Below, one piece after another: positions 41,592-56,626 of a DNA stretch of 64,000 bases. How positions within the stretch are numbered: the stretch's first letter is position 1; each line of letters opens with the position of its first letter. The stretch comes from Nostoc sp. TCL240-02. Its GTDB lineage: Bacteria; Cyanobacteriota; Cyanobacteriia; Cyanobacteriales; Nostocaceae. The notes beneath the pieces were generated by a model. The model did not search any database and had not been told where the DNA came from. It saw only the letters and a list, made by a program, of their open reading frames with translations. The position numbers and the translations under genes were made by a program. The stretch spans positions 4,886,001 to 4,950,000 of the forward strand of contig NZ_CP040094.1 in assembly GCF_013343235.1 (NCBI RefSeq), read 5' to 3'.

Positions 41592-42860
41592 ATGGCAGAT
41601 AATTTTATGCTTTATTTCTTTATTTCTCCACATAGTTCATACACTGGGTTGATTTGGAGATGCCTACAGATTCAATTGGGAGTAATCTGTAGCGTAGGTA
41701 TTTGGACATTCTCAGAAGCTAAGTTACAAGCTGCCCAAGCACATCAGACCTGGAAATCACCTTCAGAATTGATTGAGGGAGTCACCAAAGTCAATCCTGA
41801 GCCAACACCTATCTTGATGGCCGCACCCGAAAACTTCAATCCTGATTTGCAATTACGGCCAGCGCTACCCGAACCCCCGCAAAATTCTAGTCCACCAAAA
41901 ACTTTCACCGAACCACCGCAGAATTCTAGCCCACCAAAAACTTCCACTGAACTAAAAACGCCAGATGCAGTTTTGGAAAGCATTCATACGGACTATCGCT
42001 ATGACACAGATAACTTTGGCCAAACCAATTTCTTTTTTGAACCAACGGTTCAGTTTCGATTGAGTAATGGCAATAAAATATTTGTGAAAACAGGTTTTAA
42101 CTTATTTGAACAACGCGGTGTTGAATCAATTACGAATTTTCCCTTGCAAATTGGATGGCAAGGAAAAATTGGGCACGTGACTCTGCAAACAGCAGCTGGA
42201 GTCGATGTCTTCAATCGTTTACCTACAGCGATCAATCTCAATGCTAAAGTGGAGGCTCCCATTTCGACACCGCAAGTTTCGTCATCAGGTCGATTGCTAT
42301 CGGTAGTAGTACTATCAGGTAATTTAGAACAAGGCCCTTATAAATCAAATGCCCGAACTTTAGAAAATCAAATTACTGCTTGGCGATTTGGGCCTGATTT
42401 ATACTGGCAAATTGACGGTGATACCAGCTTATTTTCATCATTGCGTTTAGGTAGTTACAACGATGGGAATTCCGAGGTGCAGTCATTTAGTCGGCTAGAA
42501 CGCAAGTTCGGACAATTTTCTCTGGCAGCTAACTTATTCACTTGGAATTTTGATCGCGATTTAGAACGCACAAGTGGCTATTTTTCCCCACCAGATTTTC
42601 TGGTTTACAACGCTGAGGTGGCTTGGGAAGGAGATATTGCTAATTTCTTACGCTGTCGCCTCGCTGCCAACTTAGGACAGCAGCGACTTAAAGGAGAATT
42701 TGATAACGCCAATACCTATCAAACACGCTGTACGGTAAAGGTTTCACCAAATATAGAGGCAGATATTGGCTATAGCTTTAGTAATGTCCGAAACCAAGAA
42801 ACCGGGGGAAGTGCCTATGGTGGTAATTCTTTGACAGGACAGTTGCGGGTCAAATTTTAG
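41592..42860 (+). CDS. Probable outer-membrane or secreted beta-rich protein
   Basis: 422 residues. A hydrophobic segment (IQLGVICSVGIWTFSEA, about 26-42) is a likely signal. A Pro/Ser-rich stretch with a repeated PPQNSSPPKT (about 93-120) follows. Then a domain of alternating strands (FFFEPTVQFRLSNGNKIFVKTGFN..., LFSSLRLGSYNDG) ends in VKF, an aromatic C-terminus typical of outer-membrane barrels. I recognise no named family. It lies 22 bases before a giant hybrid kinase in the same direction, so it may be the sensed or controlled envelope component. Confidence 0.65.
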   Translation: MADNFMLYFFISPHSSYTGLIWRCLQIQLGVICSVGIWTFSEAKLQAAQAHQTWKSPSELIEGVTKVNPEPTPILMAAPENFNPDLQLRPALPEPPQNSSPPKTFTEPPQNSSPPKTSTELKTPDAVLESIHTDYRYDTDNFGQTNFFFEPTVQFRLSNGNKIFVKTGFNLFEQRGVESITNFPLQIGWQGKIGHVTLQTAAGVDVFNRLPTAINLNAKVEAPISTPQVSSSGRLLSVVVLSGNLEQGPYKSNARTLENQITAWRFGPDLYWQIDGDTSLFSSLRLGSYNDGNSEVQSFSRLERKFGQFSLAANLFTWNFDRDLERTSGYFSPPDFLVYNAEVAWEGDIANFLRCRLAANLGQQRLKGEFDNANTYQTRCTVKVSPNIEADIGYSFSNVRNQETGGSAYGGNSLTGQLRVKF

Positions 42861-42882: not shown

Positions 42883-45800
42883 ATGAAAGCACCATTACCT
42901 GATAACGAAATACAGCGAATCGAATCTCTTTTAGAGTATAAGATCCTTGATACTCGTTCGGAAGCTGCCTTTGACGATCTCACCCGTTTAGCCTCATATA
43001 TTTGTGGCACTCCTATTGCCTTAATCAGTTTAATTGATAGCGATCGCCAGTGGTTCAAGTCAAAAGTTGGAATGGAAGCCCTAGAAACACCGCGAGATTT
43101 GGCATTCTGCGCCCATGCCATTGTTCAACCTGAAGTTTTTGTTGTGCCTGATGCAACACTTGACGAAAGATTTGCGACAAACCCGTTTGTCACCTCTGAC
43201 CCAAATGTTCGGTTTTATGCTGGTGTACCGCTAACTAACCCTGAAGGATATGCACTCGGAACACTGTGTGTAATTGACCGTGTACCAAGAAACCTCTCCC
43301 CAGAACAAGTTGAAGCATTGCAAATTATCGGTCGCCAGGTAATCAAGCAATTAGAAATGCGGCGTAACCTAGCAAGTTTGGTATTGGCGAGTCATACACG
43401 CAAACAGGCACATAAGGGACGCAAACAATTTTTTCAAAGAGTCGCTGGAGGGTTTGGGTTAGCATCGGTAATTTTAGTTTTAATTGGCGTGATTTCTTAT
43501 CAAAACACACGCATATTGATTGATGCTAGTAATCAGGTACAAAAAACCCAAGGAAAAATCAATAAACTGGAAGAATTACTGTCCGAGATGAAGGATGCTG
43601 AAACTGGACAACGCGGTTATATCCTGACTGGACAAGAAAGTTATCTGGAACCTTATCTAGCAGTAGTCGCAAACATCGATCAAAAAATTGTAGAACTGAA
43701 GGATTTAATCGCAGATCAACCTAGCCAACAAAAGCAGTTTGCCGCCCTTGAATCTCTGATAGCTGCAAAATTTGCCATACTCAAACAGACTATATACCTG
43801 CGTCAAAATCAAGGATTTGAAGCGGCGTTGCAGGTAATCCAGACAAATCAAGGGAAATATATCATGGATGATATCCGCAAGGTCATCCATGATATAGAAA
43901 ATGAAGATAAAAGGTTGCTTCAACAGGAGTCACAAGCTGCAAAAGCCAGTGCAAACAACACGGTTTTGACACTTGCGATCGCTATTTGCCTAAGTTTTAT
44001 CACTCTGGCCATAGTCTACTACTTCATTTATCGTGAGGTAAAAGAACGTAAATTAACAGAGGAAACCCTAAACCGAGAACGCAACTTTATTTCAGCAGTC
44101 CTTGATACAGCTAGCGCTTTGGTAATAGTTCTGGACACACAAGGGCAAATCGTTCGCTTCAATCAAGCTTGTGAACAAACAACTGGTTACTCGTTTGATG
44201 AGGTGAGAGGAAGGTATTTCTGGAACTTGTTTCTAAGTCCTGAAGATGTAGAAGTTGTTAAAGCAGTTTTTGAGCAGTTACGAAATGGTAAAGTGCCCAA
44301 AGAATATGAGAACCATTGGGTAGCAAAGGATGGTAGTCGGCGGTTGATTTCATGGGCTAACGCTACTTTGCAAGACGATGAGGGTTGCGTTGAATATATT
44401 GTGGCCACAGGTATTGACATTAGCGATGCCTACGACGAGCTTCGTTTACGCAAACGAGCAGAACAGCACCTCAAAGCCCAGTATTCTACAACGCGCGTCT
44501 TAGCAGAGTCAACTACAATCAGTGAAGCTATGCCCCAAATCCTGCAAGGAATCTGCGAGAGTTTGGAATGGGATTTAAGTGAAATTTGGATGGTAAATCA
44601 ACAACTGAATCTACTGTTTTTACTTAATTCATGGTATAAAATATCTTCAAAAATGCAAGAATTTGACATCCTTAGTCAGCAGACCACCTTTGCACCAGGA
44701 ATTGGCCTACCTGGTCGTGTCTGGGAGAGTGCTGAACCTGTTTGGATGACTGATGTAGTTAAAGACAAAGATTTCATCCGCTCTCAAATGGCTGCCCAAG
44801 CAGAACTGCACGGAGCTTTTGGTTTTCCGATCCATAGTGGTAAAAACATTCTTGGTGTCATTACCTGCTTTAGCCATGAAATCCAGCAACCTGACCCAGA
44901 TTTGGCAAAAGTTATGAATTCTATTGGTGAGCAAGTAGGGCAGTTTATTGAGCGCAAGCAGGCAGAAGAAGAACTCCAACGCCAAAATTTGCGATCGCAA
45001 CTATTTACTGAAATCACCCTCAAGATTCGTCAGTCTTTGCAAATCAAAGAAATTCTCCAAGTCAGTGTTACGGAGGTACAAAAAATTCTCCATAGCGATC
45101 GAGTTTTGATTTATCAACCTTTGACAGATGGATCTGGAAGTACTGTGGTTGAGGCAGTAGTTTCTGGCTGGTTGACAATTAAAGAGAACAAACTCACTGA
45201 TTCTTATTTTCAAGCGGAATATACACAACAGTACTATCTACAGCAATATCGTCAAAAACGGAATCTAGAGCTTGCTGACTTAGATATAGTGGAAATTCAA
45301 AAAAGACATATAGAATTACTGCAACAATTTGGGGTCAAATCCAATTTAGTCATACCTATTCTTGTCAAAGAAGAACTCTGCGGTTTGCTGATTGTCCATC
45401 AGTGTGGCAGTTCCCGCCAGTGGTCTAGTTTTGAAACTCATCTTTTACGACAAATAGCCGATCAAGTAGGTATTGCCTTAGCTCAAGGCCAAATGTTATA
45501 TGCAGAAACTCAACAGCGAAGAGAACTTGAGGTTGCTCGTCATCAAGCTGAATTAGCTTCTAAAACCAAAAGTGCCTTTTTAGCAAACATGAGTCATGAA
45601 ATTCGGACTCCAATGAATGCTGTGTTGGGGATGACAGGCTTAATGTTAGAAACTCCCCTAAACTCAGAGCAACAGGATTTTATCGAAACTATTCGCATTA
45701 GTGGAGATGCTCTTTTAAGCCTCATCAACGAAATTTTGGATTTGTCCAAACTTGAGGCTGGGGAAATGGCACTAGAAACTCTAGATTTTGACTTATCTTC

Positions 45801-47577
45801 CTGTCTAGAAGAAGTGTTGGAATTATTAGCTCCCTCAGCCCATAATAAAGGATTAGAAATTGCAGCGTTAATCTATCCCAACGTTCCCACCCAACTCCAA
45901 GGTGATGCTGGCCGCCTCCGGCAAATTCTGATGAACCTGATCAGTAATGCGATCAAGTTCACCAGCAATGGAGAGGTAGTAGTCCGAGCAGAATTGCGTT
46001 CGCTTTCCTCTACTACAGCCACCATTTATTTTGCCATCACAGATACCGGTCTTGGCATTACCTCTGAAGACCAATGCAAACTCTTTACCCCATTCACCCA
46101 AGTAGATGCTTCCACCACCCGCAAGTATGGCGGCACAGGTTTGGGATTAGCCATCTGCAAGCAACTGGTAAGCTTGATGGGAGGAGAAATTGGCGTAGAA
46201 AGTCGATTGGGTAAAGGATCTAAATTTTGGTTTGAAGTAACTCTTGCCCAGCAACTTCACCCTATTTCCTCAGAAAGCGAACGCGAACTTCTGACTAATC
46301 GGCGCTTGTTAGTGGTGGATGACAATGCTACTAATCGCAAAATTATCCACCATCAAGCTACGCGTTGGGGAATGTTAGTAGATCAGGCTGCTTCGGCTAC
46401 TATTGCCCTCAAAGCTATTGAGGAGGCTGCCAAGCAAAAAAATCTCTATGACATTGCTGTGATTGATATGCAGATGCCAGAAATAGATGGCATGACCTTG
46501 GGAGAGCAAATTAAAGCAAATTCAGCGATCGCTAGGCTACCTTTGATTATGCTTACCTCTACTAATCAACGCGATGAAATCCAACGAGCGCTAAAAATAG
46601 GATTTGCGGCTTATTTGGTCAAACCTGTTAAGCCGTCACGACTCTTCGATACCATCATGACTATCTTAGGAACGCAGATAAAGGAGGAGATAGAAGTCAG
46701 AAGTCAAGAGTTAAAACTAAAAAATTACAAAAACAACATCAACGATCATTCTCCTAGCTCACGCTTCCCGACTCGTGACTCCCATAAATTAAGAATTCTT
46801 TTAGCTGAAGATAATCTAGTGAATCAGAAAGTAGCTTTGAAGCAACTTCAAAACCTGGGTTATGGTGCTGATGTCGCTGGTAATGGGAAAGAAGTTTTGC
46901 AACTCTTAGAAAAAATTCCCTACGATTTAATTTTGATGGATTGCCAAATGCCAGTTCTCGACGGTTTAGAAACTACAAAAGAAATTCATCGTTGGCAAGA
47001 AAGTAGCTTTGTCAATAGTCGTCGCCCTGTAGTAATTGCGATGACAGCTAATGCGATGAAAGAAGATCAACAAATGTGTATAGATGCAGGAATGGACGAC
47101 TATCTGAGCAAACCAGTAATCAAAGAAAAATTGGCGGCGGTTCTACAGCGTTGGGGAAGTGTGATATTCAAGGCAAAAGAAATATATGTTTTAGAGCAGA
47201 AAGTTTCTAAAACAGATGTAGGGTCAGTTGACCTCCCAATTGATTGGGAACGCTTGCATCAACTCTCGGAAAACAACCCAGAATTTGAATTAGAACTACT
47301 GCAAATATTTGTTGAAGATATGCAACCTCGTTTGGAGATCATTAAAATAGCGATCGCAACCCATGACTTTGAGCAACTAGCACTCCAAACCCATCAAATT
47401 AAAGGTGCTAGTGCCAATGTTGGAGCTACAACAATGCATCTAGCAGCACAAAAGCTAGAAAAATTAGCAATAAATCAAGAGCGCCGAGGTACTACTCACT
47501 TAATCTCAGAGTTAGAAGAGTTTGTTAAACACATCCAAGATTTTTTGAACTGTAAAAATAGTAACACCAAAAGCTAA
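42883..47577 (+). CDS. Hybrid histidine kinase GAF-CHASE3-PAS-GAF-GAF-HK-REC-REC-HPt
   Basis: 1564 residues. A GAF domain comes first (~1-160). A transmembrane segment (~188-208), a CHASE3-like extracellular sensor with [11 protein letters not shown], a second membrane segment (~362-384), PAS (~405-520), two more GAF domains (~530-690, ~705-875), and HisKA with His905 ([10 protein letters not shown]) follow. Next are the ATPase domain, receiver 1 (Asp1195), receiver 2 (Asp1353) and an HPt domain with His1504 ([10 protein letters not shown]). A full phosphorelay is thus in one chain. The last ~260 residues are nearly the same as in the kinase at 51367-53751. No dedicated output regulator adjoins. 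Confidence 0.93.
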
Positions 47578-47837
47578 AAAAATCATAATATTTATTAATA
47601 AATTAACAGCGACGATTTTTTCTGAGTAATCATGAAAAATATTTATTTTTCATTTTTCATTACCAATTTACTATTTTCAAGATAGAACTTGCGAACAATT
47701 GGGAATAATAAATTTGATCTACTAAAAGTAGGTTCGGTGAGTTAGCTACAATCATAAGCTAAAAATTTTTAGCCTAAATTTCAGTTAAATTCATCACCCC
47801 TATCCCCAATAGATTACCAAAAAGCGAGGTTTTTCTG

Positions 47838-48494
47838 ATGAGTCAGATGAGTAGAGACGATGTACGAGAACGGCTTGGTAATATCGATCAAATCCGCGAT
47901 ATTATTTTGGGAACACAGCTAAGAGAGTACGAAAATCGATTTAGCAAGCTGGAGTCAGATATATCTCTGTTGCAACAACAGATGCGATCGCATATCGATC
48001 AACTCAAGTCAAACTTTTCGGCTGAACTAAAAGCAGGATTTGAAGCACTGGATAAAAAGCTGAAGTCACTCAACCTGACAACTCAAGAAGAAACTCTTGA
48101 CTTACGCCAACAGGTTGATAGACTTAACAAAAAATTCTCTAGCAGCGTTCAGTCTCTTGATGAAACCCTAGATAGCCAAACTACCTCGATTCGAGATGAA
48201 ATCTTTCAAACTAAAGTCAAATTACAAGATGATGTCACGGTATTACGGGATCTGATTTTAGAAGAAATAGATCGACGCTTTTCGCAGTTGACAGACACTA
48301 AAGTTTCTAAAGACGATATGGCTGAAACTTTGTTTGCTTTAGGAATGCGCCTGAAAGAAACTGAATTTATTCCTAAATTACGAGAAGCCGCTGATGAAAT
48401 TAACGAAGACTATACTGCTGTACCACTTCTAGAAACTACAAAGTTCTCAAAAGTGTTAACTCACGCTAACAGTACCGCAGAATTACATTCCTAA
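47838..48494 (+). CDS. Coiled-coil protein of unknown function
   Basis: 218 residues, almost all predicted coiled coil with heptads (FSKLESDISLLQQQMRSHIDQLKS..., LDLRQQVDRLNKKFSSSVQSLDETL). The start MSRDDVRERLGNIDQIRDIILG and the end EFIPKLREAADEI are less regular. There is no signal or membrane segment. It precedes the roadblock/BON/OmpA gene by 96 bases in the same direction and probably belongs to its operon, perhaps as a scaffold. The function is not recognised. Confidence 0.75.
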   Translation: MSQMSRDDVRERLGNIDQIRDIILGTQLREYENRFSKLESDISLLQQQMRSHIDQLKSNFSAELKAGFEALDKKLKSLNLTTQEETLDLRQQVDRLNKKFSSSVQSLDETLDSQTTSIRDEIFQTKVKLQDDVTVLRDLILEEIDRRFSQLTDTKVSKDDMAETLFALGMRLKETEFIPKLREAADEINEDYTAVPLLETTKFSKVLTHANSTAELHS

Positions 48495-48590
48495 TCAAGT
48501 CAGAAGGCAAGGATAGATGAGGGAGATAATAACATAATAACTCCTAACTCAGTATGGGCTAAACGCCCCGCTAACAGCACTCTTAAAAGG

Positions 48591-50780
48591 ATGACTCAGG
48601 TGGAAAATTCGATTTCTCAATCTGTTGAGTTAAAGCCAGAAGAAACTGTACATCTTGATAATTTAGTGCATCTACTAGTTGAACTCAAAATTATCGAATC
48701 ACCTGAGCAATCTTTTTCTTCATTACCATTAGAAAATGATTATAGTAATGAATTGATTATAGAAAAAATTGAAGTATTGCAACTTACTCCGGTAACATTA
48801 GAAACATGTATACCTTATTTAGAGCCGACTTTTAATTTTCCTCAAGATATATCGAATTTATCAAAAGATATCGAAGAAGAATTAGAAAAAAATATTGAAA
48901 TATTTACAATTTTTGAGGAAAAGATAGATAACTCAGAGGATGCATTGCAAAAATTAAAAGATATATTGGTCGGATATGATATATCAGAAATAAACAAGAC
49001 TATATCTAAAATTGAACAAAAATTCATAAACATAGAGCATCAAATTTACGACCCTAAAGAGCTAATAAATCTACTACTACCTTGTATTTCTGAGCTTTTA
49101 AGGCTGAAAATTGCAGAATCAAAAGAGGAAATTGCACAGATTATTGCTCCGATTATTGATCGGGCTATTCACGGTCGAACTGAACAGGAGAAAAGTAGTA
49201 TGAGTGCAGCGATCGCACCTGTTATTCCTCTGGCTATTACTCAGCAGATTATTGTTGCTCCAGAAGAAGTTTCAGATGCGATCGCTCCGGCAATAGGACG
49301 AGCCATAAAAAAGCAAATTGAAATTGAACAGAATATTGTGGTTGATGCACTCTACCCAATTATTGGTAGTACCATAGCCAAATATATGGCAGAGACAATC
49401 CGTGCCATTAACCGACAAGTTGAAGAAACCCTTAGCGTTGAAGGGATCAAACGTAAAATTCGTGCCAAGCTACAGGGAGTTTCGGAAGCAGAATTAATTC
49501 TTAAAGAAGCTCTGCCATTTACCATTCAAGCCATTTTTTTGATTCATAAAGCATCTGGTTTAATTATTTCAGATATTCAGCACTCTGATGTAGAGAAGCT
49601 AGAGGCTGAGATGGTAGCAGGAATGCTGACAGCAATTCGCAGCTTCGCCAATGATTGCATCAATCAATCAGGAAGTATAACAGAATTAGATGCAATTGAA
49701 TATGGGACATCAAAAATAATTTTAGAAGTTGCAGGATACTGTTATTTAGCGATTGTTGTGCGAGGAGAGCCAAGCAAAAAGTTTATTTGGAAAATGCGGC
49801 AGGTTTTCAGCAAAATAGTTAAAGAATATGGTGATTTAATTGAAAAGTTTGACGGCGATCCAGATTCAATTCCTTTTGAAGTTCATACACTTCTAGAAGA
49901 ACTAAAAAATTTAGGTATTCAGGAGAAAAAGAAAACAAAAGTTTCACCAATACTAGTATTAGGTTTAACAGTAATCAGTGCCATTTTCATTCCTTGGGGC
50001 ATTTGGCAATACCATAGTGGAGTTATAAGTTCCATTGAAAATCAAACTTTGTTGGCTCTAACTTCTGTTCCCGAACTAGCCGTATATCGGCTCTCTGTAC
50101 AAGTAGAACACAATAAAATAAAATTAACAGGACGATTGCCTAATCCACTTCTTCGTCAGAAAGCCGAGCAAATTGTCAAAATAACCTCTCCTAATTGGTT
50201 GATTGACAATCAAATTTTATTAGTAGAAGTACCAGCAGATCCTGTATTAGCTGCTGCTGAAGTCAAACGAGTCACAGCAGTTTTAAATCAAGCTGACGAT
50301 ATAGCAATTTCCGCTCAATACATTGCTGGTAAAGTAACTATTGAAGGAACTGTGAACCGAATTGCAGATGCTCAGATTATTGCTAATGCGTTTGAACAAA
50401 TTCCAGGCGTAAAATCTATGTCTAGCGCGGTGCGAGTACAACCCCCACAGATCGAAGTTCGATTTTACTTTCAACCCGACTCAGCCAGTTTAATGAAAGC
50501 AGATACAGCAGATAAGATTCAACAGGTCAGGTTTTTCCTCAACCAGCACCCAAATAAACATTTAAAAATTATTGGTTATAGTTATGACCGTACTGGCGTG
50601 AATAAATCTCAAAAATTGGCCTTGGCGCGAGCAAAATCTGTACAACAAGCACTGATTAAATTAGGTATTGAGCCATCTCACCTACAGATCATTGGTAGGA
50701 CAAATTTACCAGATGGAATTGATGTCACTCACCCATTGTGGTTAAGCCGCTGTGTCACTCTAGAAGCGATAAACAAGTAA
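48591..50780 (+). CDS. Membrane protein: helical repeats, roadblock-like domain, BON and OmpA domains
   Basis: 729 residues. The N-terminal ~450 residues are soluble. They include a helical part with repeated IAPxIxRAI segments (IAPIIDRAI, IAPAIGRAI) and a domain starting FLIHKASGLIISD (about 318-425) that resembles roadblock/LC7-type GTPase-binding domains. One membrane helix follows (ILVLGLTVISAIFIPWGIW, ~453-471). The rest should be periplasmic: BON-like repeats (~490-620) and an OmpA-type peptidoglycan-binding domain (FYFQPDSASL to the end, with YDRTGVNKSQKLALARAKSV). The next gene, 56 bases on, is a Ras-like GTPase, so this looks like its transmembrane partner. The domain reading of the roadblock part is tentative. 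Confidence 0.8.
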   Translation: MTQVENSISQSVELKPEETVHLDNLVHLLVELKIIESPEQSFSSLPLENDYSNELIIEKIEVLQLTPVTLETCIPYLEPTFNFPQDISNLSKDIEEELEKNIEIFTIFEEKIDNSEDALQKLKDILVGYDISEINKTISKIEQKFINIEHQIYDPKELINLLLPCISELLRLKIAESKEEIAQIIAPIIDRAIHGRTEQEKSSMSAAIAPVIPLAITQQIIVAPEEVSDAIAPAIGRAIKKQIEIEQNIVVDALYPIIGSTIAKYMAETIRAINRQVEETLSVEGIKRKIRAKLQGVSEAELILKEALPFTIQAIFLIHKASGLIISDIQHSDVEKLEAEMVAGMLTAIRSFANDCINQSGSITELDAIEYGTSKIILEVAGYCYLAIVVRGEPSKKFIWKMRQVFSKIVKEYGDLIEKFDGDPDSIPFEVHTLLEELKNLGIQEKKKTKVSPILVLGLTVISAIFIPWGIWQYHSGVISSIENQTLLALTSVPELAVYRLSVQVEHNKIKLTGRLPNPLLRQKAEQIVKITSPNWLIDNQILLVEVPADPVLAAAEVKRVTAVLNQADDIAISAQYIAGKVTIEGTVNRIADAQIIANAFEQIPGVKSMSSAVRVQPPQIEVRFYFQPDSASLMKADTADKIQQVRFFLNQHPNKHLKIIGYSYDRTGVNKSQKLALARAKSVQQALIKLGIEPSHLQIIGRTNLPDGIDVTHPLWLSRCVTLEAINK

Positions 50781-50836
50781 TTTTAAGTTTATAGTAGCTA
50801 TGATTCGGATAAAATATTCTCTACTTTTTCTTAACT

Positions 50837-51361
50837 ATGTCTACAATTTCTAAAAAAATATGCTTATTTGGTGATTTTGGGGTTGGTAAAACTAGTCTAA
50901 TTCGCCAATTTGTGGAGTGTCAATTTAGTGACGAATATCTTTCAACTGTAGGAGTGAAAATTTCTCGAAAATTGGTTAGTGTTTCTGAAAAAGACTTACT
51001 TATTAAAGAAAACTTACAGTTAATAATTTGGGATATTGAAGGCAGTAATAAGTTTAAGGCAGTTGCTAACAATTATTTTCAAGGTTCTAAAGGTGCTGTG
51101 ATAGTTGGTGATGTAACACAAGCAGATACGCTCGCTCATATCCAGAAACATATTCAAACTTTTTTAGCTGTTAATCCTAAAAGCTATATTGTTGTTGCAC
51201 TGAACAAATCAGATATGATCGCATCTGAGTATTTAGAAAGCATTCGGACAACGTATCAATTCACTAATCAAGTTAATATATTAGATACATATATAACTTC
51301 AGCAAAAACTGGCAATAATGTTGATAAAATATTTCAATCTTTAGCTAATCGTTTAATTTAA
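50837..51361 (+). CDS. Ras/Rab-like small GTPase
   Basis: A 174-residue single-domain GTPase. It has P-loop GDFGVGKT (12-19), switch I Thr37 (STVGVK), DxxG at 66-69 (WDIEG), NKSD at 123-126 and SAK at 155-157. The residue after DxxG, Gln61 in Ras, is Ser70 here, so unaided GTP hydrolysis should be slow and a partner may supply the missing group. There is no C-terminal cysteine for lipid attachment. It lies between the roadblock/OmpA gene (56 bases before) and a hybrid kinase (5 bases after), a clear operon. The role is inferred to be a switch in envelope or polarity signalling. Confidence 0.9.
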   Translation: MSTISKKICLFGDFGVGKTSLIRQFVECQFSDEYLSTVGVKISRKLVSVSEKDLLIKENLQLIIWDIEGSNKFKAVANNYFQGSKGAVIVGDVTQADTLAHIQKHIQTFLAVNPKSYIVVALNKSDMIASEYLESIRTTYQFTNQVNILDTYITSAKTGNNVDKIFQSLANRLI

Positions 51362-51366
51362 TTAAG

Positions 51367-53751
51367 ATGAAATCATTGTTGGCAAAGCTATTATCTATAT
51401 GTGGTATTGAATATTTGATAATTGATGAAAACTTGAAGATTCGAGAGATGTCTTTAGGAATAAATCATTTTGCCAATATTCATAATGAAGTGAAGCCAGG
51501 TCAGGATGTCCGGATTATATTTCCAGAATTAGAGGGAATTGAAGATATTTTTGATGCAATTCTACAGGGCGATCAAGATAATTTTGAATTAAAGGGAATT
51601 ATGCGATCGCAAGATACGGCTTCTCCTTTATATATTGATATTCGTATTACTAATAACCTCCAAGAAGACCATTATAGCAATAGAATAATCATTATTATCG
51701 AAGATTCAACAGAACGGATGGTTCTTGAGCAATCTTTGTTTCAAGGTGCAAATGAAGCAAATCTTTTATTACGTAACCTAAAGGCTTCCAAACAATATAT
51801 TGACCAAATTGTGACATCAATGGCAGACGCGTTGTTAGTGACAACACTATCAGGCGAGATAAAAAAAATAAATTATGCTGCACAAATTTTATTGCAATAT
51901 AACGAAATAGAACTCATCGGTCAACATATTACAAAAGTTATTAAAGAAGTTAGCAACTATCAATTGATAATTAAGGATACTGAAAGTATTAATACACATA
52001 ATCAAGATATAAACTCTTTAGAACAAGAGGTAGAAAGCGTTTGTTATACTAAAAGTGGTAAAACAATTCCTGTAGCTTTTTCATCCTCAATAGTGAAGAC
52101 AGAAATTGAACATTTTCAAGGTTATGTTTACATTTTGCGAGACATGACTGAACGGAAGCAAGCGGAACTTGCTAAACAAGAATTCTTAGCCATGATTAGC
52201 CATGAGGTGCGGACTCCAATTTCATCGGTAATTGGTATAGCCAGTTTGTTGCTATATACTGAATTGACTGATGAACAGCAAGATTTCGTTGAAACCATTT
52301 ACACAAGTGGAAATTCATTACTCAAAATTATTAACGATTTCCTTGACTTCTCCAAAATACAATCGGGGAATCTGGAATTTGAAGAGGAACCTTTTTCCTT
52401 GCGAAATTGCATTCATGAAGCTCTTTATATGCTTGCGCCTACAGCTACAGAAAAAGGTTTAAAATTGACATTTTTAGATACTCCTGAACTTCCTACTACA
52501 ATTGTGGGAGATATCACCAGACTGCGCCAAATATTGATTAATTTACTCAGTAATGCTATTAAATTTACTGAAACTGGGGGGAGCATAGAAGTTTCAGTTC
52601 TAACCCGCAAGAATAGCGATATTAATCATTCTTCTATCGCAAATACTGATGAAATTCAGTTTAGTGTTAAAGATACAGGCATCGGAATTCCACGCGATCG
52701 CCTTGAACGTTTATTTAAAGCCTTCAGTCAAGTTAACTCCTCTATTACTCGGCAGTATGGGGGTACTGGGTTAGGTCTTGCTATCTGCAAGCAACTGTGC
52801 GAGTTAATGGGTGGCAGAATTTGGGTTGAAAGTGAGCTTACTGTAGGTAGTACATTTTACTTTACGATTACCACTTCTGTTATTCCAAAGGAGTCAGAAG
52901 TTAAGAATCAGCAATTATTTTTATTGTCCCCGTGTAAAAGCGTCCCTGTTTCTTCTTCTCAGTCTCCTGACTTCTATAAATTAAGAATTCTCTTAACTGA
53001 GGATAATCAAGTGAATCAAAAAATAGCCTTGAAACAACTCAAAAGTCTGGGTTATAGCGCTGATGTTGCTGCTAATGGGAAAGAAGTTTTGCAGCTATTA
53101 GAAAAAATCCCCTACGATTTAATTCTGATGGATTGCCAAATGCCAGTTCTCAACGGTTTAGAAACTACAAAAGAAATTCATCGTTGGCAAGAAAGCAGCT
53201 TTGTCAGTAGTCGTCGCCCTGTAGTAATTGCAATGACAGCTAATGCGATGAAAGAAGATCAACAAATGTGTATAGATGCAGGAATGAACGACTATCTGAG
53301 CAAGCCAGTAATCAAAGAAAAATTAGCTGCGGTGCTAGAACATTGGGGAAGTGTGATATTCAGGGCAAGAGAAACAGATGCTTTGGAGAAGACAATTTCT
53401 ACAACAGATGTCGGTTCAGTTGACCTTCCAATTGATTGGGAACGCTTGCATCAACTCTCGGAAAACAACCCAGAATTTGAATTGGAACTACTGCAAATAT
53501 TTGTTGAAGATATGCAACCTCGTTTAGAGCTAATTAAAATAGCGATCACAGATAGTGACTATGAGCAACTAGCGCTCCAAACCCATCAAATTAAGGGTGC
53601 TAGTGCCAATGTTGGAGCTACAACCATGCATTTAACAGCACAAAAGTTAGAACAATTAGCGATAAATCAAGAACGTCGAGGTACTACTCACTTAATATCA
53701 GAGTTAGAAGAGTTTGTTAAATGTATCCAAGAGTTTTTAATCACGAGATAG
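51367..53751 (+). CDS. Soluble hybrid histidine kinase PAS-PAS-HK-REC-HPt
   Basis: 794 residues without membrane segments. Two PAS-like domains come first (~10-125 and ~140-265). The kinase core has His279 ([11 protein letters not shown]) and the ATP-binding N, G1 (DTGIGIP) and G2 ([13 protein letters not shown]) boxes. The receiver has Asp589 (LMDCQMP) and the HPt domain has His740 ([10 protein letters not shown]). The gene starts five bases after the GTPase stop, so the two are tightly co-transcribed. The receiver-HPt tail is almost a copy of that of the 42883-47577 kinase, suggesting recent duplication or gene conversion and a common phosphorelay target. Confidence 0.93.
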
Positions 53752-53950
53752 TTATGGTATAAAATATAACGTCAATTTCAAGCTTGGATTTTTTAATGGC
53801 GACCGAATCAAATCGATAACTATCTGCATTTACTGGGGGATTGTTGGAAAAGTTGGTAAAAAAATTGAGTCTTGCTGTATGAAGCACTTTAGAGTTTTTT
53901 GCTTATGGCTAATAATTAAGCTATCAGCTAGCAAAGCTCAGATAAAATGA

Positions 53951-54367
53951 TTAATAATATTTACTGATAAATAAACAGTAACGATTGTCTCCTGTTGGCT
54001 CATAACTTAATTTGTCGGCAATGGTAGACATAATTTTTAAACCCCGCCCCCGGTCTTGCTCATTCTCATCAAATTCAGATATTTGCCGCAATTGCTCCTC
54101 TAAATTAAATGGTTCACCTTGAGACCAAATGCGGATTTCTATATATTCATTTCCCCGTACAGCTTCTATTTCAATAGGAGTTTCAACAGGTAATTTTTTG
54201 TGTGCATGTTCAACAATATTAGTAAAGCCTTCCATCAAAAGTGTTTGACATTGCCACCAAATCTCTTTATCAGAAATAGGTGGGTGATTCATCTGCTCGA
54301 ACCAAAATAATACTTGAGGCGATGCTGTAAGGTCTGTGTTGACTTTTAGATAAATTTTAGTTTTCAC
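53951..54367 (-). CDS. RsbW-like anti-sigma factor / serine kinase
   Basis: 138 residues of the GHKL ATPase type used in partner switching. The N-box region is LLMEGFTNIVEHAHKK (Glu and Asn in place) and the G-box region is ENEQDRGRGLKIMSTIADKL. These proteins bind a sigma factor or other target and phosphorylate a STAS antagonist. It stands divergent from the PP2C phosphatase gene, and a STAS gene lies 1.4 kb further on. The three together make a full switch. The target is unknown. The gene is convergent with the kinase operon. Confidence 0.9.
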   Translation of the reverse strand: MKTKIYLKVNTDLTASPQVLFWFEQMNHPPISDKEIWWQCQTLLMEGFTNIVEHAHKKLPVETPIEIEAVRGNEYIEIRIWSQGEPFNLEEQLRQISEFDENEQDRGRGLKIMSTIADKLSYEPTGDNRYCLFISKYY

Positions 54368-54541
54368 TTCTTAACCAATGAAATAATTTGAGACGATCCT
54401 ATTCTTATTTAATTTATTTAATTTGAGTATTTTTACTATACATTTAAAACTAAATTGCATATAAGTTTAATGATAGCAATTGCTTCCTTTTGATATAAAC
54501 ATAATTCAGGAATCAGAATTCATTCTAGTAAACTTTAATTT

Positions 54542-55732
54542 ATGTTTAAAATTTTGGTTATTGATGATGATCCTATAGTGCGAGCAGTACTGAAAAAAAC
54601 ACTCCAAAATCAGGGTTATGATACCACTGTAGCGAGCAATGGCAAAGAAGGAATTACACAAGCAAAATTACTACATCCGGCTCTGATTATCTGTGACTGG
54701 ATGATGTCCGAGCTAGATGGGCTAGAAGTGTGTCGTCGAATTAGAACAGATCCACAGTTAGCAACTACTTTTTTTATTCTATTGACGGCTAGGGGAGCAG
54801 CTCGAGGAGAGGAGGAAGATCGAGTTAGAGGACTTGACGCTGGAGCAGATGAGTTTATCTCTAAACCAATAGAGATGAATGAATTGAAAGCACGGGTGAG
54901 AGCAGGATTAAGATTACACCAGTTAAATCAAGATTTACAAAGTCAAAAAGAAGTTTTGGAGACACTCAATCAAGATTTACAAACCCAAAAGCAAATTTTG
55001 GAGGCAGAATTAGCTGAGGCTGCTGATTATGTGCGATCGCTCTTACCCTCACCGCTTGCAGGAGCAGTAACTACAGAAAATCTGTTTATTCCCTCAGCAC
55101 AGCTAGGGGGTGATTGCTTTGACCATTATTGGATCGACGAGGATAATTTGGCAATTTATTTGTTGGATGTATCAGGTCATGGGGTGGGTTCAGCCCTCCT
55201 ATCTGTATCGGTGCTGAATGTTTTGCGATCGCAATCTTTACCAAATACCAACTTTTGTCAACCCAGTGAAGTCCTAAAAGCGCTCAATCATGCCTTTCAA
55301 ATGACGAAGCACGGTGATAAATACTTCACAATCTGGTATGGAGTTTATCACCGTCTGAAACGTCAGCTTATTTATGCCAACGCTGGACATCCACCAGCTT
55401 TACTGCTATCTCATACCTCGACAACAAGCATCCAAGTTAAACAGCTAAGTTCTTTGGATCTCCCAATCGGCTTTTTAGCTGATGTCCAATTTGAGGATGC
55501 TATTTTTCAGATCGAAGAGAACAGTATTTTATACATTTTTAGTGATGGTGTTTATGAAATTAATCAGTCAGATGGTAGAATTTGGGGTATTGATGCTTTC
55601 ATTGACTTACTAACTAAATATAGTCGAAAAGATTCTTGTGTTCTCAATCAACTATTAGCGAACATCCTTATCTTAAATTCTCAAGATAATCTTGATGATG
55701 ACTTCTCTTTAGTAAAAGTGAACTTTGGTTAG
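54542..55732 (+). CDS. Response-regulator PP2C phosphatase (REC-SpoIIE/RsbU type)
   Basis: 396 residues. The receiver domain has Asp52 (IICDWMMSELDG) and Lys in ISKPIE. A coiled linker with a repeated LNQDLQxQKxxLE unit (~123-160) follows, then a PP2C/SpoIIE phosphatase domain (~175-396) with GGDCFDHYW, LLDVSGHGVGSALLS, YANAGHPPALL and FSDGVYE metal-binding segments. It should dephosphorylate a STAS protein when its receiver is phosphorylated. The hybrid kinases nearby with HPt domains are obvious candidate phosphate donors, which is inference. Confidence 0.94.
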   Translation: MFKILVIDDDPIVRAVLKKTLQNQGYDTTVASNGKEGITQAKLLHPALIICDWMMSELDGLEVCRRIRTDPQLATTFFILLTARGAARGEEEDRVRGLDAGADEFISKPIEMNELKARVRAGLRLHQLNQDLQSQKEVLETLNQDLQTQKQILEAELAEAADYVRSLLPSPLAGAVTTENLFIPSAQLGGDCFDHYWIDEDNLAIYLLDVSGHGVGSALLSVSVLNVLRSQSLPNTNFCQPSEVLKALNHAFQMTKHGDKYFTIWYGVYHRLKRQLIYANAGHPPALLLSHTSTTSIQVKQLSSLDLPIGFLADVQFEDAIFQIEENSILYIFSDGVYEINQSDGRIWGIDAFIDLLTKYSRKDSCVLNQLLANILILNSQDNLDDDFSLVKVNFG

Positions 55733-55774
55733 TATGTCAAATGTGCCAATTTAAATTTAGGCTAGTATTGGAGC

Positions 55775-56101
55775 TTACTGTGTTGCCAATACTTGGCGAT
55801 TGAATTCATCTTGGTCAGCAAAGGTTTGAAAAACTCTATCCATTTTAGTCAATTCAAACAACATTCTGACTTGATCGCTGATCGAACAAACAAAAAGTTT
55901 AGTATTAGCATTCCGAGCCATTTGCATTGCTGAGACTAAAGCACCTAAACCAGAACTATCGATAAACTTTACTTCTTTCATGTCAAGTAACAAAATATCG
56001 GCTCCAGTTACCAGAATTTCGCTAACTTCACGACGCAGTTCATTACCTCTAACACCATCTAAAATCCCAGATAATTCTAGTAATTTTACGCTCATAGTCA
56101 T
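55775..56101 (-). CDS. STAS-domain anti-sigma factor antagonist (RsbV/SpoIIAA type)
   Basis: 108 residues with the whole STAS fold. The phospho-acceptor region is IDSSGLGALVSAM (Asp48-Ser49-Ser50-Gly51). It should be phosphorylated by the RsbW-like kinase at 53951 and freed by the PP2C protein at 54542, with which it is convergent (42-base gap). An alternative start at codon 3 (MSVKLLEL) is equally possible. Confidence 0.93.
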   Translation of the reverse strand: MTMSVKLLELSGILDGVRGNELRREVSEILVTGADILLLDMKEVKFIDSSGLGALVSAMQMARNANTKLFVCSISDQVRMLFELTKMDRVFQTFADQDEFNRQVLATQ

Positions 56102-56626
56102 GGTTTTATCCTATTGTTTGACTGGGGAAAATGTATTTACATTTTGGCATTGACCTAAGCTAAAGTGCAATAGATATTGCAATAGTTTTGTATCTTAAAG
56201 GAATTTGCTTTAATTCGTGTTCGCGTACCGTGGCGTAGCCATACTTACTTGTGTAGTGCGGCTTGGTAATTATTATTTACTATTGCAGTAAAGAATCTAG
56301 CCTCTAGACATTAGCGAAAAATTTCAAAAGCTTTAAAATAACCATCTTTATAACCTAAATATCGTGCCCAGAAACAAGACATGTCGAGTGGCAATGTGGC
56401 AAACTTGCCACCCAACATGAAAAAATACTGCAAATTATACAGCTAGGATTACGTTATTCCTTGACGTTAGCACAACTATCGCATTGTTTCTTTCTAGATG
56501 GTCTGAAAATTCAGTGTCTGATTAAATCAAGATCAAGTTAGCGGCTCTGCGTTAAAGTAAAAATATTGGGATCAAAATCTCTGCCAGTAAGTTCAAACAC
56601 CACTAATCTTTACCACTGCGGCGATA
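56102..56626. other. 525-bp spacer
   Basis: No gene. It holds a GCGTACCGTGGCGTAGCC-type dispersed repeat (~56223-56240) and a perfect hairpin GTGGCAA-AC-TTGCCAC (56396-56411) without a T-run. Confidence 0.5.

Follow-up and report, generated by a model that had tools for sequence, protein, structure and literature searches.

Small GTPases of the bacterial Rup type were described in 2014 by Wuichet & Sogaard-Andersen (PMC4316618), who reported that those of Group 1 lack the catalytic glutamine of the G3 motif and are very similar to Rab, Ran, Ras and Rho. According to the parts of that paper available, Group 1 Rup genes lie beside genes for a coiled-coil protein, a protein with an unknown domain, a transmembrane (TM) segment and an OmpA domain, and an output protein, which is either a kinase or a cyclic di-GMP protein. 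The output proteins have a common N-terminal region with an invariant glutamine, for which the available text gives no position, and in the same parts no Rup interaction is described as characterised at that date. Here we analyse a locus of Nostoc sp. TCL240-02 in which such a cassette stands between a large hybrid histidine kinase (HK1) and genes for an RsbU/V/W-like partner switch. It lies in a stretch of 64,000 nucleotides (the window; contig NZ_CP040094.1, positions 4,886,001 to 4,950,000) of a 7.89 Mb single-contig genome.

The four-gene core of the locus is, by its sequence, a member of the described Group 1 Rup system, because serine replaces the catalytic glutamine (after the DxxG of G3) in its GTPase and the neighbouring genes match the published description (PMC4316618): the same four genes are present, and the second hybrid kinase (HK2) carries the N-terminal region shared by output proteins. 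The earlier note on this DNA, which knew of no described system with this set, must be corrected accordingly for the core. The locus differs from the available description in that the unknown domain is predicted to be of longin type and the common N-terminal region to have a PAS fold, and also in the setting of the cassette, within an HK1-RsbUVW module, and in the HK1-type tail of its kinase.

The glutamine is absent from 104/108 related GTPases (S 50, H 42, E 9, Q 4, N 3 at this position; 109 were found and 108 counted, some genomes being entered twice), and a similarity search places the window GTPase closest in the PDB to Rabs, Rab14 among them. Cassette loci were counted among the best 80 of 248 relatives, all labelled as cyanobacterial: a coiled-coil relative is found at 77/80, the GTPase at 76/80 and a protein with the HK2 N-terminal domain (N-domain) at 75/80, some of the misses falling at contig ends. 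These counts support the conservation of a GTPase–kinase neighbourhood well outside Nostoc. The same genome contains another, divergent Rup locus (G000:C1:4012090-4014191; L033:7005-10203), with a GTPase 38% identical and the order coiled coil, longin-OmpA type protein (601 residues), GTPase (166 residues), a 133-residue protein directly after (L002) and histidine kinase; seven other genomes read have loci like it (L056-L062). At L048, L143, L145 and L185, a single Rup GTPase has two or three consecutive N-domain proteins next to it, as though it had several effectors.

We consider it slightly more likely than not that two modules are joined here, a phosphorelay partner switch and the Group 1 Rup cassette, both reaching the same PP2C phosphatase. 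In the first module HK1 would pass phosphate via its histidine phosphotransfer (HPt) domain to the receiver (REC) domain of the PP2C, which would set the phosphorylation of the STAS antagonist against the RsbW-like kinase. In the second, the BON-OmpA part of the membrane protein (hereafter the receptor) would sense the state of the wall or envelope and so alter the receptor's cytoplasmic longin-type domain through one TM helix; the longin domain would control the nucleotide state of the Rab-like GTPase, which, GTP- or GDP-bound, would act on the PAS-fold N-domain of HK2. HK2 and HK1 would then both supply phosphate to the PP2C receiver by way of similar HPt domains. As the Nostoc cassette sits inside the first module, between HK1 and rsbW, and HK2 has an HK1-type REC-HPt, the envelope or wall state read by Rup should reach the same PP2C. 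HK1, omitted from the earlier note, is the link between the two halves and is central to this reading. The gene content, predicted folds, cassette conservation, insertion site, tail contrast and conserved catalytic residues set out below were computed here; we infer the GTPase–longin and GTPase–PAS binding, the direction of regulation, the transfer from HPt to PP2C, the signal and the output.

In the window, HK1 residues 1298-1547 and HK2 residues 534-783, the REC-HPt tails, are identical at 219/250 positions, against about 51% for the kinase cores. Averaged over 18 cassette-positive genomes, HK1-HK2 identity is 0.826 for tails of the same genome, 0.784 for tails of different genomes and 0.51 for cores; the corresponding between-genome tail values are 0.818 for HK1-HK1 and 0.817 for HK2-HK2. 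In 4/18 genomes the HK2 tail is closer to the HK1 tail of the same genome than to the HK2 tail of any other, a sign of gene conversion. Rup kinases of the outgroup (L127-L139; Hassallia, Iningainema, Richelia, Rivularia, Calothrix and others) share the HK2 type of core (66-76%), but their tails differ from the Nostoc tail (REC 40-45%; HPt 21-30% or not found). In a quick tree of 46 tails, which carries long-branch warnings, 23 tails of Nostoc HK1 and HK2 group apart from 12 outgroup tails with support of 99; in a second quick tree, of 31 tails, Nostoc HK1 and HK2 tails are again set apart from outgroup tails, with support of 100. L136 was left out as a duplicate of L038, and the L139 kinase, which lies in a different frame from its N-domain, was counted as HK2. 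The HK2 cores make up one side of a branch with support of 100. Together these comparisons suggest that in HK2 a REC-HPt of HK1 type has replaced the tail that outgroup orthologues carry. The REC Asp, Thr and Lys and the HPt His are kept in 18/18 HK2 proteins examined, and the median ratio of non-synonymous to synonymous substitution (dN/dS) is 0.20 over 153 pairs.

The partner switch was followed through a genus sample of 53 genomes, our own included, with a cut-off of 83% identity or more for PP2C orthologues. These are present in 41/53, plus one broken copy (G066), and the Rup receptor in 22/53; the 22 cassette-positive genomes comprise 21 with an intact PP2C and the broken one, and the other 31 comprise 20 with PP2C and 11 with neither. 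HK1 stands beside RsbW-PP2C-STAS in 20/20 of the PP2C-positive, cassette-negative genomes (L093-L108, L197-L200); two of these have a small open reading frame (ORF) between HK1 and RsbW, and in one HK1 is a fragment close to the start of a contig. Of the 21 PP2C loci that matched best outside the genus, 20 were read (G121 was left out). An HK1-type kinase adjoins PP2C in 15/20 (8 genera) and a REC-HPt or lone HPt gene only in another 2/20; RsbW was found in 18/20 and STAS in 20/20. No Rup genes were found in these 20 stretches, at least one of whose genomes (G037) has a Rup locus elsewhere. By these comparisons the Rsb half is an older module, separate from the cassette. That HPt has been retained next to PP2C is our strongest ground for inferring that HPt feeds the PP2C receiver, a link proposed in the earlier note; it now draws on comparative evidence only, namely these loci and the HK1 tail of HK2.

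Some further observations concern this module. In the cassette-positive genome G066 the PP2C orthologue (G066:C7:891130-894249) is in two pieces, with stops inside the first. A receiver-PP2C paralogue (57%) lies at G000:C1:5739250-5740380 (L193:9211-10713) and has a STAS gene convergent to it, while the 20 kb read there contains no match to RsbW or to a kinase; a match of this paralogue type (56-58%) is listed for 52/53 genus genomes. The genes after STAS were scanned in one relative (L034:2-4098) and encode a PIG-L deacetylase, a cellulose-synthase-like glycosyltransferase (GT2) and a DUF3131 protein, and a DUF3131 protein also lies near STAS at L094:3996-6791. Such polysaccharide genes in L034 and L094 hint at polysaccharide control, a hint weakened by the finding of none directly after STAS in the window. 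A 422-residue protein with a weak BCSC_C match (E-value (E) 5e-4, below cut-off) precedes HK1 at window positions 41592-42860 and in most genus genomes read, and a relative lies near PP2C in L201, L207, L211, L217 and L218 outside the genus.

The receptor, whose nearest relatives are mostly from Nostoc, had been predicted to contain a roadblock domain. There is no Pfam roadblock match in it at E 0.1, but an AlphaFold2 (AF2) model of residues 275-452 has a fold of the roadblock/longin superfamily, nearer longins than MglB; the proposal of a protein with a peptidoglycan-binding domain and a domain of this superfamily beside a GTPase thus stands (Pfam OmpA; AF2 model). Most of the structural matches ranking higher than MglB are longins, chains of adaptin and coatomer, or TRAPP/Mon1-type proteins. 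The secondary structure elements of the model (E, strand; H, helix; E37-45, E51-56, H65-85, E93-97, E100-107, E110-117, H122-144, H155-165, H167-173) follow the β-β-α-β-β-β-α-α order of longins with a C-terminal helix, preceded by an additional helix (H25-33), and 126 residues of the model align to Sec22b, of 127. A Fuz_longin_1 profile gives a weak match in 2/13 members examined (best E 0.0085). The model suggests that the unknown domain of the receptor has a longin-type fold, tied via the one TM segment to a periplasmic BON-OmpA part.

The earlier note had likened the pair to MglA/MglB, so that the membrane protein would be a roadblock GTPase-activating protein of an MglA-like GTPase. We consider this very unlikely. 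MglA/MglB and the actinobacterial conservons (Cvn) do share with this locus a small GTPase and a partner of the roadblock/longin superfamily, and the conservon, in the account available (PMC4316618), also has a histidine kinase. However, the window GTPase is of Rup type and closest to Rabs in the PDB, 0/71 small Rups are coupled to MglB in table 1 of PMC4316618, and the superfamily domain is here within an OmpA-anchored protein. Robl_LC7 (PF03259) is unmatched in the receptor and in 0/14 genomes, our own included, was a match found (control matches were obtained in 3/14 well-known genomes), and the ranking of structural matches above also speaks against MglB. The locus also recalls eukaryotic pairs of a Rab-like GTPase with a longin fold (TRAPP-Ypt1, Mon1-Ccz1-Ypt7, Fuzzy-Inturned-Rab23), complexes that are among the structural matches of the model. 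It differs from them in being bacterial, membrane- and wall-anchored and beside a histidine kinase, and the pairing here is a predicted one.

At E 1, Pfam gives no match for the HK2 N-domain of the window protein. Residues Gln 122 and Gln 126 are each present in 131/134 sequences, and the domain is carried by histidine kinase (HK), HK-REC and GGDEF proteins. Across the cassette loci, outputs are plain HK, HK-REC, HK-REC-REC or GGDEF proteins, which implies that the kinase is exchangeable and would suit an arrangement where HK1 alone controls the switch, Rup acts elsewhere (for example on pilus or envelope machinery) and HK2 is a side branch. We nonetheless regard that arrangement as highly improbable, since the presence of the N-domain at 75/80 loci, on kinases and GGDEF proteins alike, suggests that N-domain proteins are effectors of the Rup GTPase. 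At L153, L155, L165 and L192 the N-domain is fused to very large HK1-type hybrid kinases with HPt, and at L153 and L179 the next protein has a receiver 59-63% like that of PP2C plus a kinase-like part.

Within the genus the cassette lies at most 10 kb from PP2C in 19/22 cassette-positive genomes (13, including the window, read gene by gene and 6 placed by coordinates alone), and RsbW, PP2C and STAS are all present at 14/15 genus-type loci among the best 80. In the window, the junction between HK2 and rsbW matches the one between HK1 and rsbW in L093, a closely related genome with no cassette: the match is 98% over 59 nucleotides at the gene end, followed by 87% over 319 columns that finish in rsbW itself. 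A remnant resembling the rsbW 3′ end follows HK1 clearly in the window (local score 41 vs 29 for letter shuffles) and L038 (47 vs 29) and barely above shuffles in L037 (35 vs 32) and L112 (34 vs 30); in the remaining 12/16 loci (L034, L035, L036, L039, L040, L041, L042, L043, L044, L109, L110, L111) it is not above shuffles. Given the junction match and the remnant, a direct repeat made up of the tail and the rsbW end seems to lie on either side of the cassette, as would be expected had it integrated by homologous recombination. A repeat of this kind would equally make loss of the cassette possible, which would explain its patchy presence. In six cassette-free genomes the HK1 3′ end turns from HK1-like to HK2-like in L093, L108, L197 and L198 and is mixed in L094 and L100, a pattern that fits an ancestral junction and loss by tail recombination equally, so that gain and loss are indistinguishable by it.

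Several findings weigh against a shared route to PP2C. In 3/22 genomes (G045, G046, G065) the cassette and HK1 are elsewhere and RsbUVW lacks HK1. Among the other 65 of the best 80 cassette loci, several of them short-flanked, RsbW is found at 0/65 and PP2C with STAS at 1/65 (L140, Stenomitos), and none of the further outgroup cassette loci read has PP2C beside the cassette; the whole set is thus conserved within the genus and hardly outside it, the neighbourhood foreseen in the earlier note holding only there, and an old conserved system comprising the whole set is rejected outside the genus by the near absence of the combination. Of the outside-genus PP2C loci, which represent only 12 genera, 3/20 (L201, L219, L220) have neither HK1 nor HPt. 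Approximately unbiased (AU) tests reject neither one clade of all HK2 tails (p 0.219, log-likelihood 24.8 lower) nor one clade of Nostoc HK1 and HK2 cores (p 0.396), so the argument for tail replacement is carried by the identity contrasts together with the grouping of Nostoc tails. The longin call is based on one model, with a mean predicted local distance difference test (pLDDT) score of 75.6 and values for ten-residue blocks that range between 53 and 93 across the domain; a profile search of PDB sequences with the longin alignment found no longin at E 10, its only match being a lipoprotein (E 0.82). No sigma factor gene adjoins the locus among the genes scanned with Pfam. Finally, because the HK2-rsbW junction matches that of HK1-rsbW in a cassette-free genome, the shared tails need not reflect selected rewiring, and the duplicated tail may be an insertion scar.

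These last data fit duplication at insertion and form the core of an alternative in which the two modules are unrelated neighbours: the cassette landed by chance, the REC-HPt tail is a recombination scar kept alike by gene conversion, and HK2 uses another receiver. The conversion signs in 4/18 genomes, the three off-site cassettes and the 1/65 outside the genus are all in its favour. Two observations oppose it: the HK2 tail is intact and constrained in 18/18, and L140 is another pairing of the cassette with a REC-PP2C. REC-HPt tails help choose phosphorelay partners, so even a scar, the tail being intact, would tend to redirect HK2. On balance we regard the chance-neighbour account as rather unlikely, though of appreciable weight, and continue to favour two modules joined at PP2C.

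Two cyanobacterial partner switches bear comparison. The Hmp switch (HmpU/V/W) of Nostoc punctiforme likewise comprises PP2C, STAS and an RsbW-like kinase in Nostoc. By locus tag, hmpU (Npun_R5135) and hmpW (Npun_R5134) are adjacent and hmpV (Npun_F5169) is apart, whereas the window trio is contiguous on alternating strands, a comparison by gene arrangement alone and from the parts of PMC10581220 available. The Synechocystis Slr1861-Ssr1600-SigC switch and icfG operon (PMC12329169) share an RsbW-like kinase and STAS antagonist, a sigma factor being the reported target; the available parts of that paper, with which we compared by description only, describe neither a receiver-PP2C fed by a hybrid kinase nor a Rup cassette.

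The features of the locus are collected in the table. ORF coordinates and Pfam bear out the gene run, the domains and the gaps of 56 bases (membrane protein to GTPase) and 5 bases (GTPase to HK2) first read from the sequence. RsbW-like HATPase, STAS antagonist and PP2C phosphatase occur together in the window (Pfam HATPase_c_2, STAS, SpoIIE) as an Rsb-type trio. They follow the kinase as had been described, but not as one unit: from HK2 through RsbW, PP2C and STAS the neighbours are convergent, divergent and convergent, and with the RsbW-like and STAS genes on the minus strand and PP2C on the plus strand the three do not form one transcription unit. Co-transcription of the whole set, a single operon of all seven genes, is likewise ruled out by the strands. 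A promoter and terminator scan of 47400-56400 was uninformative (promoters 36 vs 32.1 expected, terminators 3 vs 5.1), and Rfam and tRNA scans of the window gave no matches.

Table. Features of the Rup cassette and partner-switch locus, in window coordinates.
Feature	Coordinates	Strand	Basis
HK1 hybrid kinase, GAF-CHASE3-PAS-GAF-GAF-HisKA-HATPase-REC-REC-HPt; neighbours both halves	42883..47577	+	Pfam
REC-HPt tail copy 1, HK1 residues 1298-1547	46774..47523	+	219/250 identical to copy 2
33-nucleotide stretch like rsbW 3′ end, directly 3′ of HK1	47585..47617		Local score 41 vs best-of-200 letter shuffles 29
Coiled-coil-like protein, Rup cassette gene 1	47838..48494	+	From sequence; Pfam matches sub-threshold only
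Membrane protein (receptor): N-terminal region, longin-type domain (predicted), TM, BON, OmpA	48591..50780	+	Pfam BON E 1.4e-9, OmpA E 5e-10; AF2 model residues 275-452
Longin-type domain (predicted), receptor residues 311-448	49521..49934	+	Predicted model
Single TM segment, about receptor residues 453-475	49947..50015	+	By eye from translation
OmpA domain, receptor residues 626-703	50466..50699	+	Pfam OmpA E 5e-10
Rup-type small GTPase, Rab-like	50837..51361	+	Pfam Ras E 2.3e-28; best PDB matches Rab14, other Rabs
HK2, Rup-cassette hybrid kinase, N-domain-PAS-HisKA-HATPase-REC-HPt	51367..53751	+	Pfam; HK1-type tail
HK2 N-domain, common to cassette output proteins; predicted divergent PAS fold	51367..51771	+	AF2 pLDDT 87.1; Foldseek top matches PAS/LOV
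REC-HPt tail copy 2, HK2 residues 534-783	52966..53715	+	Alignment with HK1 tail
RsbW-like kinase, HATPase_c_2	53951..54367	-	Pfam E 8.9e-17
Receiver-PP2C (SpoIIE; RsbU-like) phosphatase, proposed phospho-acceptor of HPt domains	54542..55732	+	Pfam
STAS (RsbV-like) antagonist	55775..56101	-	Pfam STAS E 8.4e-20

Among the entries listed in searches of open-licence literature we found no report of a Rup–longin pair or of the combination of cassette and partner switch; the four-gene core is already described, and what did not appear there is the assignment of a longin fold and the capture of a tail that would tie the cassette to a partner switch, both predicted here. The locus suggests that in Nostoc a widespread bacterial G-protein system has become connected to a gene-control switch of older origin. 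More tentatively, and as a claim we would place somewhat short of probable, this may be a true bacterial Rab/longin switch, with a wall-anchored TM receptor as regulator, which was wired into the Nostoc phosphorelay by tail capture, the cassette being able to recombine in and out between the duplicated tails. The duplicated REC-HPt tail would then be a case of attaching a G-protein input to an existing phosphorelay by recombination. A longin-type fold in the conserved membrane partner of Rup would provide a concrete candidate regulator and bears on whether the pairing of Rab and longin predates eukaryotes; if it is true, Rab/longin switches would occur in bacteria too, and not only in eukaryotes and Asgard archaea.

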